Positions 37,451-49,633 of a stretch of DNA of 64,000 nucleotides are shown piece after piece. The DNA lies in NCBI RefSeq assembly GCF_003234085.1, contig NZ_QKSD01000006.1, forward strand, positions 124,001-188,000, written 5' to 3'. The notes under the pieces were generated by a model. It was not told where the DNA came from, searched no databases, and was given only the letters and a program-made list of their open reading frames with translations. The DNA comes from Curtobacterium sp. MCPF17_052 (GTDB lineage Bacteria; Actinomycetota; Actinomycetes; Actinomycetales; Microbacteriaceae). The translations under genes were made by a program, and so were the position numbers. Each line of letters begins with the position of its first letter. Position 1 is the stretch's first letter.

Positions 37451-38107
37451 TCAGGCCGGCGGGTGCAGCACCGCGAACGACGGAGTGCGGTCACGCTCGA
37501 TGTGCGAGTAGGCCAGCGCCTCGGCCATCCGCTCGTCACCTCGGGCGATCGCGGCGGCGAGCTCGACGTGGTCGTGGAAGGCGTCGTGGACATCGAGCGC
37601 GCTGGTCAGGTAGAACAGCCACTGCACCCGGCCGGAGACGGAGCGCATCGAGGCCTGCAGCAGGCTGTTGCCGGTCATCGCGACGATCGCCTCGTGGAAC
37701 CGGGTACTCGCCTCGGCGATGCGGTACGGGTCGCCGTCCTCGACGACGCGCTGCGACCAGGCGAGTGCCGCCTCCAGCTCGTCCGTCGCGACACCACGGA
37801 CGACCGCCCGGGCGGCGTGCCCGGCGGCGCCGACCTCGAGCACCTCGCGCAGGTCGAAGAGCTCGTGGATGAGCCGGGAGGTCCAGGTCGACACCACGGC
37901 TCCGCGTCGTGGTGTGCTCGTCACGAAGCCCTCGACCTCGAGCATCGGGACGGCTTCCCGCAGGGGGACGCGGGAGACCGCGAGCTCCTCGGCGATCCGG
38001 GTCTCCGCGAGCTTGTGCCCCTGGGGGTACTCGCCGCGGATGATCGCTTCGCGGAGGCGCGCGTGGATCTGCCGCGGGAGCGACAGTGCGGGCTCGGTGG
38101 TGGTCAT
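37451..38107 (-). CDS. GntR family regulator (FCD/FadR subfamily)
   Basis: A 218-aa regulator. The winged HTH reads LREAIIRGEYPQGHKLAETRIAEELAVSRVPLREAVPMLEVEGFV (about 17-61). The FCD domain holds metal-binding-type residues (FHEAIVAMTGN and HDHVELAAAIARGD with conserved His). ATG 38107 follows GAAGG. It lies downstream of the transporter binding-protein gene, after a terminator, so it has its own promoter. It is the obvious candidate regulator of the catabolic operon, whose ligand could be its substrate or an intermediate. Confidence 0.9.
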   Translation of the reverse strand: MTTTEPALSLPRQIHARLREAIIRGEYPQGHKLAETRIAEELAVSRVPLREAVPMLEVEGFVTSTPRRGAVVSTWTSRLIHELFDLREVLEVGAAGHAARAVVRGVATDELEAALAWSQRVVEDGDPYRIAEASTRFHEAIVAMTGNSLLQASMRSVSGRVQWLFYLTSALDVHDAFHDHVELAAAIARGDERMAEALAYSHIERDRTPSFAVLHPPA

Positions 38108-38163
38108 CGGGTCAACCTTCGCAGACTCGGGCGGCGGTCCACCGGGCTTTCCGGGGACCGGAC

Positions 38164-38191
38164 GGGGCACCGGGGTCGTCCCCGGTGCCCC
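38164..38191 (-). terminator. Terminator of the catabolic/ABC operon
   Basis: GGGGCACCGGGG and CCCCGGTGCCCC pair perfectly (12 bp, loop TCGT) 5 bp beyond the binding-protein stop codon. It separates the operon from the GntR gene. Confidence 0.85.
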
Positions 38192-47680: not shown

Positions 47681-48851
47681 GCCGGGCCTCCGCGGTGGTG
47701 AACTGCGCCATCGCCAGCAGGTACCCGGTGAGCTGCGCGGGCAGGACGGTGAGCAGCGGGCTGAGGGGCTCGGCGATCGCCGGCACGACGACGACCTCGT
47801 CCGCGATCGCGTCGAAGGCGTCGACGCCCTCGGTCGTGACGACGTACACCGCGCCGCCGAACCGCTTCGCCTCGCTGGCGGTGTGCACGGCCCGCGGCAC
47901 GGACGGCCCGGCCGGCGCGATGACCCAGATCGGTTCGCCGCGCTTCAGCGAGTTGTAGTGGTGGAACTCCTCGACCTGGATCGCCTCGGCGTGGTCGGGC
48001 GTGCACTCCTTGACCTTCGCGGCGCCGATGATCGCGCTGCCCCAGCTCGGACCGGCACCGGAGAACAGGAACGTACCCGCTCCCTGCTCCCGCTCGGCGA
48101 TCGCGCGGAGGCGGGGCTCCGTGGTCGCGATGACGTGCTCCATCAGCTCCGGGACCGCCGCGAGCTCCCGGCGGAGCCCCTCGGCCGCCGGCACCCCGGT
48201 GCGGACACCGACCCGGGTTGCGAGGTCGAGCAGCAGCGCGAGTGCGGTCGTCGAGGACTGGGTGGGCCAGCCGACCCGCGTGGCCCTGAGCCGCAGGGTG
48301 CGTGCGGACTCGACGTCGAGGGTGGAGCCCGCCGTGTTCGTGATGGCGACGACCAGGGCTCCGGCGTGCTGGGCCATCAGCGCGGCCTCGACGGTGCGGG
48401 TGGTCTCCCCCGAGCTCGACAGCGCGATCACGACGCTGCGCTCGGTGACGAGCGGGGCGCCGTAGTAGGCCAGCTCCAGGCTCTGCACCGGCTCGACGGG
48501 GACGCGGAGCATCTGCTCGAGCACCTGGCGGGCGGCGATCGCGACGGCGAGTGAGTCCCCGGCGCCGGTCACGAACACGCGGTCGACCTCGGACCGGGCG
48601 ATCAGGGCGGCGAGTTCGTCCAGGTCCTCGTCGTTCGCGGCGAGGGTCTCGCGGATCCGGTCGGGCTGGGCGATCAGTTCCGGGAGGGTCGCCTCGTCCC
48701 GGGCACGGCGTTTCGGGTCGAGGGGGTGGTCGGTCGGCAGCGCGACGATCGAGGCGTGCTCGGCGGCGGAGACGCGTTCGACGACCTGCTGCTGACGGGC
48801 GTCGAGCGGGCTGTCGACACCGATGAACGGGCTCGGCGGGGTGCTGGTCAT
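47673..48851 (-). CDS. SIS domain sugar-phosphate isomerase-like protein
   Basis: A 392-aa protein with two SIS domains. The first has VFVTGAGDSLAVAIAARQVLEQML and ALSSSGETTRTVEAALMAQHAGALVVAITN, and the second FLFSGAGPSWGSAIIGAAKVKECTPDHAEAIQVEEFHHYNS. This matches AgaS/GlmS-type aldose-ketose isomerases or aminosugar deaminases without a glutaminase domain. It should act on a phosphorylated sugar or aminosugar. Overlaps both neighbours (4 bp with the BtpA gene and 8 bp with the kinase gene). Confidence 0.9.
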   Translation of the reverse strand: MTSTPPSPFIGVDSPLDARQQQVVERVSAAEHASIVALPTDHPLDPKRRARDEATLPELIAQPDRIRETLAANDEDLDELAALIARSEVDRVFVTGAGDSLAVAIAARQVLEQMLRVPVEPVQSLELAYYGAPLVTERSVVIALSSSGETTRTVEAALMAQHAGALVVAITNTAGSTLDVESARTLRLRATRVGWPTQSSTTALALLLDLATRVGVRTGVPAAEGLRRELAAVPELMEHVIATTEPRLRAIAEREQGAGTFLFSGAGPSWGSAIIGAAKVKECTPDHAEAIQVEEFHHYNSLKRGEPIWVIAPAGPSVPRAVHTASEAKRFGGAVYVVTTEGVDAFDAIADEVVVVPAIAEPLSPLLTVLPAQLTGYLLAMAQFTTAEARHG

Positions 48852-49633
48852 GCGCGGTGTCCTGTCGTGTCGAGGGTCCGGCCGAAGCGGGCGGCGGTCT
48901 CCGGGTCGATGCGGGCGTCCGGGGCGCTCGAGCGCTTGATCGCGCTGCCGAGGACCACGCCGTCGGACCGGCGGACGGCGTCGGCGATCGTGTCGAGCGA
49001 CACCCGGCCCCCGACCACGAACGGCACGTCGGCGACGGCGCGCAGCCGTTCGATGTCGTCGAGGGCGTCGGCGACTCCGCTGTCACGGGTGACGACGAGC
49101 ACGTCCGCGAGGCCGAAGTCGTGCGCCTCCTTGGCCGCCCACGCGGGGCTCCCGGCCAGCGCCAGGCTCGTGGCCTCGTGCACGTCCGCCCAGACCTCGA
49201 CGTCGGCACCGAGTCGGCGGCGCATCGTCGCGACGTCGTGGGCGCACCCCTCGATCCAGCCGGTCGGGCCGACGGAGACGCCGGTGAGGACCTTGACCCG
49301 CACGAACCTCGCCCCGATGGCGTGGGCGATGGCGACCGCACTCGGGCCGTCGTTGTGACCGACGACCACGCCGACCGGGACGTCCACGGCCCGGGTGACG
49401 GCAGCGCCGACGACGGCGAGCGCGGCGACGGTGGGGGCGTCGACGCGGACGGCCTGGGGCATGTCACTGGCGTCCTGCACCATCACGTGCGTGAAGCCCG
49501 CGGCGACCAGCGCGGCGGCGTCCTCAGCGGCCCGTTCGGCGATCGTCGAGACGGGCACGCCGGCGTAGTTCACGGCGCCGGGCAGGGGCGGGAGGTGGAG
49601 GACTCCGACGAGGCGGAACGGGGCGAGAGGCAC
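48848..49633 (-). CDS. BtpA/SgcQ family protein
   Basis: A 261-aa TIM-barrel-like protein. VGVLHLPPLPGAVNY at the N-terminus, VMVQDASDMP, VGVVVGHNDGPSAVAIAHAIGARFVRVKVLTG and the C-terminal VVGGRVSLDTIADAVRRSDGVVLGSAIKR are the BtpA/SgcQ signature. The biochemical role of the family is not well defined; SgcQ lies in a sugar gene cluster in E. coli. First gene of the ten-gene operon. Start is a GTG at 49633 with no ribosome site, 9 nt after a TATACC, so the message may be leaderless. Confidence 0.88.
   Translation of the reverse strand: MPLAPFRLVGVLHLPPLPGAVNYAGVPVSTIAERAAEDAAALVAAGFTHVMVQDASDMPQAVRVDAPTVAALAVVGAAVTRAVDVPVGVVVGHNDGPSAVAIAHAIGARFVRVKVLTGVSVGPTGWIEGCAHDVATMRRRLGADVEVWADVHEATSLALAGSPAWAAKEAHDFGLADVLVVTRDSGVADALDDIERLRAVADVPFVVGGRVSLDTIADAVRRSDGVVLGSAIKRSSAPDARIDPETAARFGRTLDTTGHRA

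Follow-up and report, generated by a model that had tools for sequence, protein, structure and literature searches.

A modular ten-gene operon of Curtobacterium as a candidate pathway for sugars joined to nitrogen rings

Results

A ten-gene operon with its own importer and a probable regulator

The window analysed here is a stretch of 64,000 nucleotides from Curtobacterium sp. MCPF17_052 (contig NZ_QKSD01000006.1, positions 124,001 to 188,000), and our subject is an operon of ten minus-strand genes at 38197-49633 of this window. In order of reading they encode a BtpA/SgcQ family protein, a double-SIS protein, a PfkB-family kinase, a racemase, an amidohydrolase, a PuuE-like protein, an ABC ATPase, two permeases (PermC and PermB) and a substrate-binding protein (SBP) (Table 1). 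Seven of the nine junctions are overlaps (-4, -8, -4, -4, -4, -4 and -4 bp, in order), and the last two genes follow at +4 bp (PermC/PermB) and +65 bp (PermB/SBP). The two ABC ATPase domains lie in a single fused gene, and the Opp/Dpp-type importer is complete, consisting of an SBP_bac_5 protein, two BPD permeases and two ABC domains with oligo_HPY. A GntR gene begins 89 bp past the end of the SBP gene. This layout agrees with a first-pass annotation of the window made from the sequence alone, which had described ten leftward genes, most of them overlapping by 4-8 bp, and behind them a GntR gene of the FCD type; FCD and GntR domains were both found, and the profile matches bear out the families that it had named for the ten genes. 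Its strong terminator is present as a stably folding 14-bp hairpin and lacks a U-run, and a scan for a hairpin with a T-run returned no terminator pattern after the SBP gene. A scan for Sigma-70 promoters found none.

Table 1 Features of the operon region, with positions in the window
Feature	Position	Strand	Remarks
Operator AACTGTATACCGTTT	49639..49653	-	6-20 nt ahead of BtpA GTG; second GTATAC core at 49803-49808
BtpA/SgcQ family protein, 261 aa	48848..49633	-	PF03437 161.8 bits; GTG start
Double-SIS protein, 392 aa, GlmS-isomerase-domain type	47673..48851	-	SIS in two stretches; putative phosphosugar deglycase/deaminase
PfkB-family sugar kinase, 317 aa	46727..47680	-	PfkB 107.5 bits; ribokinase 80 bits, cut-off 300
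Allantoin/hydantoin-subfamily racemase, 240 aa	46008..46730	-	K. pneumoniae chain 3qvj 191 bits
ATZ/TRZ-type amidohydrolase, 529 aa, deaminase-like	44422..46011	-	Amidohydro_1 115.9 bits
PuuE-like cyclic ureide/imide hydrolase (putative), 313 aa	43484..44425	-	PuuE model 100.9 bits, cut-off 424.6
Fused OppD-OppF-type ABC ATPase, 617 aa	41634..43487	-	ABC_tran two stretches + oligo_HPY two stretches
OppC/DppC/NikC-type permease (PermC), 284 aa	40783..41637	-	BPD_transp_1 104.6 bits; Opp2C 219.7, cut-off 300 (longer open frame)
OppB/DppB/NikB-type permease (PermB), 308 aa	39852..40778	-	BPD_transp_1 100.9 bits; Opp2B 253.5, cut-off 350
SBP_bac_5 substrate-binding lipoprotein, 529 aa	38197..39786	-	SBP_bac_5 199 bits; lipobox LTACSG by eye
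14-bp hairpin past SBP gene, no U-run	about 38162..38193	-	fold z -4.7 over 91-nt stretch
FCD-type GntR regulator, 218 aa	37451..38107	-	FCD 79.9 bits, GntR 59.3 bits

The operon is conserved as a unit

The first-pass annotation had proposed looking for the same gene set in other actinobacteria, and the ten genes were found in unchanged order in all 19 other loci chosen for a BtpA at least 60% identical, across several genera, with 49-89% identity per gene. These are selected carriers: 13 of the 15 loci returned when the operon BtpA clade, as an alignment, was searched against one genome per species, together with G295, G248 and G201 of the same family and G1067, G1154 and G1102 of another family, to which Kineococcus belongs (G1154 and G1102 correspond to this genus). 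Many of the fetched stretches stop within the SBP gene, and partial sets that were already known (L041, L042, L062, four loci with the ring genes only, and G209) stand outside the count.

Among 299 genomes of the family, BtpA was matched at E <= 1e-10 in 28, eight of them of the operon type (E below 1e-89) and 20 divergent only. PuuE was matched at E <= 1e-50 in ten, nine of them of the operon type (E below 1e-100), and G044 (38% identity) was dropped. The two operon-type sets share eight genomes (hypergeometric 6e-15, relatedness ignored), and the ninth PuuE genome, G209, has ring-module genes together with GntR on a contig of 8.5 kb, where racemase, PfkB, SIS and BtpA gave no match. Searches with SIS matched five of 297 genomes of the order, the source genome included, and returned two matches on plasmids. 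The source assembly comprises 3.54 Mb in 31 contigs and is 77% complete, and the absence of a gene from it is therefore weak evidence. A GntR homologue with 58-81% identity is present in eight loci that reach past the SBP or racemase gene (L050, L062, L063, L064, L065, L068, L171 and L175). Some matches are interrupted: the BtpA match at L044 10010-10761 falls into two segments in different frames that join at residue 122, indicating a frameshift or a sequencing error, and the matches in L009 (G140 BtpA) and L161 (G295 PuuE) each contain one TGA.

A single operator marks the operon promoter

The palindromic sequence aactGTATACCGTTt stands ahead of the first gene in 24/24 loci, the window among them, whether this gene encodes BtpA, SIS or the racemase; the loci are related to each other. 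Its consensus, aac(t/g)GTATACCGTTt, is a near palindrome found no more than 131 nt from the first gene in every case, and GTATACC is expected from base composition 0.0027 times per locus. The source genome, as far as it is assembled (77%), holds one perfect match to AACTGTATACCGTTT, at the operon, with every other site differing at two or more positions. A search with GTATACCGTTT gave nine matches representing seven sites (two were read on both strands) in seven of 12 operon genomes, all located by coordinates at the operon promoter, and the same pattern read backwards, as a control, gave no match; the five operon genomes without a match carry variant operators. The operon is probably under the control of its own FCD-type GntR acting at this single palindromic operator, a pairing suggested by their co-conservation. 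Since the operator ends so close to the GTG start of BtpA, ahead of which no ribosome-binding site is evident, the transcript may be leaderless.

The operon appears to have moved between lineages

Each of six other genomes of the genus that were examined (G031, G105, G163, G214, G257 and G295) has the insertion site without the operon: lysS and a sigma gene lie about 1.0-1.2 kb apart with clpC next, and five of the six have a small open reading frame (ORF). In G295 the operon is present about 1.6 Mb from the empty site, and lysS was found in none of the fetched flanks of five named Curtobacterium operon loci. The genomes of the genus Kineococcus, of another family, match the window operon at 74-83%, compared with 55-71% for G004 (Frondihabitans Leaf304) and G201 of the same family, and transfer between lineages is the simplest reading because the operon of the other family is the closer one.

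The use of sigma-factor identity as a clock was rejected, as it is confounded by paralogues: G004 and G201 give 75-76%, and the Kineococcus genomes return about 50-52%, like the second sigma of the source genome. The sigma-factor-like gene concerned lies upstream of clpC at 35828-36880 of the window; its second homologue in the genome is 52% identical, and several relatives give matches near 50% only.

Sugar and ring modules separate in nature

The gene set is modular, and its sugar trio (BtpA-SIS-PfkB) and ring module (racemase-amidohydrolase-PuuE) occur apart from each other. A class-wide sample of 393 genomes searched with PuuE gave eight at E <= 1e-60, the source genome included. Four of these, genomes of 8.8-10 Mb from one genus (by inference Streptomyces), carry racemase, amidohydrolase, PuuE, ABC ATPase, PermC, PermB and SBP genes in this order with a divergent GntR gene, and they have no BtpA, SIS or PfkB in the fetched stretch and no BtpA match genome-wide. 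Another, Motilibacter rhizosphaerae (G378), keeps SIS-PfkB and everything downstream, but BtpA was matched neither in this neighbourhood nor elsewhere in the genome; the genome-wide BtpA searches were run without a positive control, and the same query did match in the family scan. The remaining two, G570 (44%) and G397 (41%), gave only PuuE and weak GntR matches.

In two of the ring-only loci, L063 and L064, domain tests identified two adjacent 2-oxoglutarate Fe(II) oxygenase genes downstream of the SBP gene; the L064 proteins most resemble chains labelled as an ethylene/succinate-forming enzyme and an iron/ascorbate oxidoreductase, with thymine dioxygenase among the next. The two oxygenases of L065 were recognised by similar first residues only and are thus probable, and the L068 stretch ends early. 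Perhaps the oxygenase pair replaces the sugar module in these loci.

The converse arrangement was found in two metagenome bins, one alphaproteobacterial (L041) and one actinobacterial (L042), where PfkB-SIS-BtpA occur without ring genes. By their open frames both have one layout, a compact PfkB-SIS-(NTP_transf_5-like)-phosphoesterase-SLOG-BtpA cluster (L041 5719-10765, L042 4307-9345) adjoining an amino-acid-permease-type transporter; the domains were tested in L042, and the NTP_transf_5 likeness is weak. A compound with two halves predicts separable sets of enzymes, and the separation of the modules therefore supports the proposal of the first-pass annotation that the substrate combines a sugar with a nitrogen ring. 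The two enzyme sets that it distinguished hold up; the origin of both halves in a single molecule, the nucleoside sugar and the order of steps are conjectural.

The sugar-module enzymes

The operon BtpA exceeds the cut-off of the subfamily model TIGR00259 (159.5 vs 153.4 bits) and misses that of the equivalog NF045918 for the cyanobacterial protein of photosystem I biogenesis (156 bits, cut-off 400). Its phmmer matches to solved structures are weak, the best being 5ey5 (E 0.0012), which we take to be an ancestral TrpA, and the family is presumably a TIM barrel. Cyanobacterial BtpA has reportedly been linked to tetrapyrrole synthesis, and we know of no reaction assigned to the BtpA/SgcQ family. 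We propose that BtpA may be an isomerase or epimerase acting on a phosphorylated sugar; GGR and G-S loops are conserved towards its C-terminus. In the SIS protein, E282 and H298 are invariant among 20 sequences that include FrlB and GlmS, and the GlmS C-tail is absent. The GAGD motif of PfkB is invariant in 18 sequences. Within the PfkB gene, at 46755-46800 of the window, a 6-bp repeat (GCTGTC, 7.7 copies) lies in frame and encodes a C-terminal Ala/Thr tail, the length of which can change without a frameshift.

The ring-module enzymes

Racemase residues C77 and C181, both invariant in 22/22 sequences, occupy the alignment positions of two 3qvj cysteines that are replaced by Ser in 3qvk. Allowing for an offset in chain numbering, we take them as the equivalents of Cys79 and Cys184, which PMC12661438 gives as the catalytic residues of K. 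pneumoniae allantoin racemase. N10 and T116 are likewise invariant in 22/22 and match Asn12 and Thr118, two of the residues by which that enzyme contacts allantoin (PMC12661438); a third, Thr119, corresponds to residue 117 here.

The amidohydrolase matches AtzA with 118 bits and 7ww2, a chain labelled 8-oxoguanine deaminase/hydroxydechloroatrazine ethylaminohydrolase (AtzB-type), with 115.5 bits, and its HxH, HxLE, H and D are conserved in 22 sequences. Amidohydrolases of the AtzA/AtzB type remove groups from rings. The PuuE-like protein matches the PuuE allantoinase 3cl6 with 81.6 bits and no Pfam family at 0.001. We opened six hand-chosen plasmid records among at least 40 listed PuuE matches (50 records). 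In three, the PuuE homologues adjoin genes for a racemase, N-carbamoyl hydrolase, dihydropyrimidinase or ring-opening amidohydrolase; in one, the homologue lies beside hydantoinase/oxoprolinase and amidase genes; and in two, beside genes for a sugar-type ABC importer, aspartate dehydrogenase, SDR and RraA.

BtpA in other gene neighbourhoods

We surveyed the neighbours of BtpA in 43 loci, comprising 27 places in other genomes and 16 of the 20 divergent family matches, with G085, G232, G275, G294 and eight operon-type loci left out. A PfkB or FGGY kinase lies within 4 kb of BtpA in 18/43, and there were 23 kinase matches in 334 kb of near sequence vs 6 in 351 kb of far sequence, counts for which the FGGY and PfkB models were partly seeded from this set, some matches are fragments or double readings and the loci are not independent. 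Of five plasmid records chosen by hand among at least 20 listed BtpA matches (110 records), three have a ribokinase or other carbohydrate kinase and one has none.

Individual loci add to this picture. Mesorhizobium huakuii has the order GntR(UTRA)-PfkB-SIS-BtpA followed by an importer of the BMP family, a family of nucleoside importers; the first-pass annotation had named a modified nucleoside as a possible substrate, and this trio leaves room for it, although a nucleoside sugar for the operon itself is conjectural. On a plasmid of Streptosporangium sp. NBC_01495 (L080, found through the SIS search), BtpA-SIS adjoin a phosphotransferase gene within a cluster that also contains folE, queE, a 6-carboxytetrahydropterin synthase and several phosphotransferases, and this 7-deazapurine-type cluster is perhaps a nucleoside antibiotic cluster. 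The loci L138, L142 and L144 show a second family arrangement of an FGGY kinase, BtpA, a DeoR-type regulator (tested in L138), an ATZ/TRZ-type amidohydrolase and an ABC ATPase. In G998, BtpA is near an FGGY kinase, a fructoselysine 6-kinase (FrlD) over the cut-off (265.7 vs 247) and two amidohydrolases, with FrlB-like SIS (110, cut-off 430) and FrlC-like (96, cut-off 305) matches that both fall below theirs. In G854, BtpA occurs with a split FGGY frame and an amidohydrolase-like gene, and the FrlD- and FrlB-like matches are both below cut-off.

Discussion

Relation to known systems

Fructosamine catabolism provides the closest parallel to the sugar trio, one that the first-pass annotation did not draw. 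There, according to the available text of PMC12632257 and PMC4941530, a kinase phosphorylates the substrate and a deglycase then frees a sugar phosphate and an amine; in the fra system, cells that lack the deglycase accumulate a phosphorylated sugar conjugate (PMC4941530). The operon resembles these systems (frlABCD of E. coli, frlBONMD of B. subtilis and fra of Salmonella, as presented in the same texts; PMC12632257, PMC4941530) in having a kinase, a SIS protein with the E/H pair (compared in FrlB), an importer and a dedicated regulator. Besides its SIS deglycase and kinase, the frl operon of E. coli encodes an epimerase, and thus also shares an extra sugar isomerase/epimerase, FrlC there; FrlC is not among the genes of the B. 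subtilis set as described in the available text of PMC12632257. Unlike frl and fra, the operon has BtpA instead of FrlC and an Opp-type importer, its SIS and PfkB are far from FrlB and FrlD by score, and its racemase, amidohydrolase and PuuE have no counterpart there. Membership in frl/fra was ruled out by these scores, and we retain the likeness in the sense that the trio may work in a similar way.

The ring module invites comparison with two further kinds of pathway. With allantoin and purine ureide catabolism the operon shares an allantoin-hydantoin racemase with its Cys dyad and a relative of PuuE, but differs in residue 117 of the racemase, in missing the PuuE cut-off and in that none of the ten genes encodes a uricase or an enzyme for allantoate or ureidoglycolate, and on these grounds plain allantoin or purine degradation was rejected. 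With hydantoin and s-triazine catabolism (Hyu, Atz/Trz) it shares the hydantoin-type racemase and the AtzA/AtzB-type amidohydrolase, but unlike Hyu it has no dihydropyrimidinase-type hydantoinase or carbamoylase among the ten genes, and the sugar trio is added. Pseudouridine-type catabolism (PfkB with PsuG) was likewise rejected, there being no PsuG-like gene among the ten. Antibiotic conjugates such as streptothricin were considered as well and are not among the readings retained. The sgc genes of E. coli also place a BtpA/SgcQ protein (SgcQ) among sugar-metabolism neighbours; unlike the operon, they include PTS components and the SgcE epimerase and no annotated kinase, SIS or ring enzymes, and their functions are putative. 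The importer scores best against Nik/Opp models, from which it differs in its fused ATPase, in missed permease and SBP cut-offs and in the catabolic enzymes that accompany it.

Strong orthology to a characterised operon, which would have contradicted the first-pass annotation, was not seen for the enzymes, none of which exceeds an equivalog cut-off among the models listed; the exception, outside the enzymes, is the fused ATPase. No description of the gene set was found among the titles and abstracts listed from the open-licence literature. The enzyme families are known singly, and their combination and modular use have not been described within the open-licence literature searched.

A tentative pathway

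Our preferred reading, which we regard as a serious possibility rather than a likelihood, is that the operon is a mobile catabolic unit importing a sugar N-linked to a five-membered ring of the (imino)hydantoin/ureide type and using both halves; the N-linkage and the type of ring are what we infer from the enzyme families. In this tentative order of steps, the Opp-type ABC importer would bring in the conjugate, the amidohydrolase would hydrolyse a C-N group of the ring (imino or substituted amino), the hydantoin-type racemase would interconvert C5 stereoisomers and the PuuE-like enzyme would open the ring. PfkB would phosphorylate the N-linked sugar, BtpA would isomerise or epimerise the phosphosugar to a form acceptable to SIS (our specific guess is an Amadori-type step), and SIS would release a sugar phosphate and an amine, so that the trio would work like FrlD-FrlC-FrlB. 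The absence of BtpA from Motilibacter fits an accessory isomerase role like that of FrlC. A bolder extension, which we consider unlikely, would make BtpA/SgcQ a new class of N-glycoside-phosphate isomerases that strip sugars from nitrogen heterocycles together with PfkB and SIS; the operon would then be the first known pathway for an N-glycosylated hydantoin or ureide, and family members elsewhere would do related chemistry.

The preferred reading is favoured by the fixed gene order, the separable modules, the shared operator, the conserved racemase and SIS residues, the gene content of E. coli frl and the kinase and frl-like neighbours of BtpA elsewhere. A number of results weigh against it. 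On the sugar side, the models for fructoselysine 6-kinase (FrlD) and fructoselysine 6-phosphate deglycase (FrlB) gave 30 bits for PfkB (cut-off 247) and 32 bits for SIS (cut-off 430), the latter with the E/H pair kept. BtpA has few invariant residues (8 across 21 aligned sequences), no PfkB or FGGY kinase lies within 4 kb of it in 25/43 loci, and SIS lies within this distance in 1/43 (the SIS of L132 is just beyond 4 kb and was counted as far). The link of BtpA with frl-like genes in G998 and G854 may be mere adjacency, given the FGGY neighbour. On the ring side, the PuuE-like protein falls far short of the PuuE allantoinase equivalog, and no N-carbamoyl amino acid hydrolase is present among the ten genes; one match to TIGR01879 over its cut-off occurs elsewhere in the genome. 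Racemase residue 117 is Met or Leu in 22/22 sequences and Thr in 3qvj and 5lfd. As Thr119 is present in 55.6% of the racemase subfamily (PMC12661438), this is weak evidence against allantoin; the protein fits the hydantoin-type racemases, with allantoin itself a less likely substrate. As regards import, the ATPase in its longer open frame exceeds the NikD equivalog cut-off (345.7 vs 318.7 bits, among the 25 highest-scoring of 191 ATPase models), and for the permeases and SBP, too, the top models are those of nickel and oligopeptide importers, such that a metal chelate or a peptide could yet be the imported ligand. The other Nik equivalogs are below cut-off (NikA 157.5/393, NikB 212.8/447, NikC 201.9/358, NikE 294.5/333), the nearest solved structures to the SBP are YliB (94 bits) and AgaA (92 bits), and none of the ten genes was recognisable as a metallophore gene.

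Alternative substrates and arrangements

Two more specific substrates would fall within the general scheme, and we consider either of them improbable. The operon might salvage oxidised nucleosides such as the guanidinohydantoin/iminoallantoin ribonucleoside of damaged guanosine: the amidohydrolase would take the imino group, the racemase and PuuE would treat the ribosyl-allantoin, and PfkB-BtpA-SIS would recover the ribosylamine end as a sugar phosphate. Such a route would explain why a deaminase is encoded side by side with an allantoin-type racemase and a relative of allantoinase, and it is consistent with the amidohydrolase match to 7ww2, with the Mesorhizobium trio beside its BMP-type importer and with BtpA-SIS in the 7-deazapurine-type cluster of Streptosporangium; the strain names Leaf304, Leaf283 and Root101 suggest plant surfaces, where UV damage seems plausible. 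It is opposed by the Opp-type importer, by the lack of a nucleosidase, phosphorylase or BMP importer among the ten genes and by racemase residue 117, which is unlike that of allantoin racemases; its chemistry is hypothetical, and a search of open-licence literature on the combined terms, guanidinohydantoin included, returned nothing. The other candidate is an arginine-derived glycation end product, an imidazolone bearing a polyhydroxyalkyl or fructosyl part, of which the amidohydrolase would cut the C2 amino link, the racemase and PuuE would process the hydantoin so formed and the trio would process the carbon chain. AtzA/AtzB-type enzymes cut groups from rings, the C5 stereochemistry of hydantoins suits a racemase, the trio resembles fructosamine catabolism and plant litter would be a source of Maillard products, but the low FrlB and FrlD scores, the lack of a peptidase among the ten genes and the failure to find open-licence literature linking the gene set to such products argue against it.

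Different chemistry on the sugar side would follow if the substrate combined a 2-amino-2-deoxyhexose with a ring of the cyclic guanidine or lactam type and SIS were a NagB-II-like deaminase of aminosugar 6-phosphates. With 138 bits to GlmS (cut-off 418) and 61 to NagB-II, vs 32 to FrlB, the protein misses every cut-off and is nearer by sequence to GlmS and NagB-II than to FrlB, which makes an aminosugar route equally natural, and retention of the E/H pair without the GlmS C-tail agrees with it. Yet NagB-II too is far under its cut-off of 430, no NagA-type match was obtained among the models listed and BtpA is left unexplained, and we judge this explanation to be distinctly unlikely. Nor need the halves belong to one compound: the importer and ring module might serve a sugar-free ring, with BtpA-SIS-PfkB recombined in under the same promoter for an unrelated or later-formed substrate. 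Four genomes do have the ring module by itself, complete with an operator and a GntR, and the trio occurs without ring genes in L041, L042 and Mesorhizobium. Against two such separate modules stand the fixed order of the ten genes in 19/19 loci over several genera and the overlap of the genes in the window, and we think it unlikely that they merely share a promoter.

Implications

Whichever compound is imported, the operon offers a direct route to the function of the BtpA/SgcQ family, as only a single gene set, regulator and binding protein would need screening, and the natural loss of each module indicates which mutants would be informative. The answer would also reveal in what way plant-associated actinobacteria exploit conjugated nitrogen compounds.

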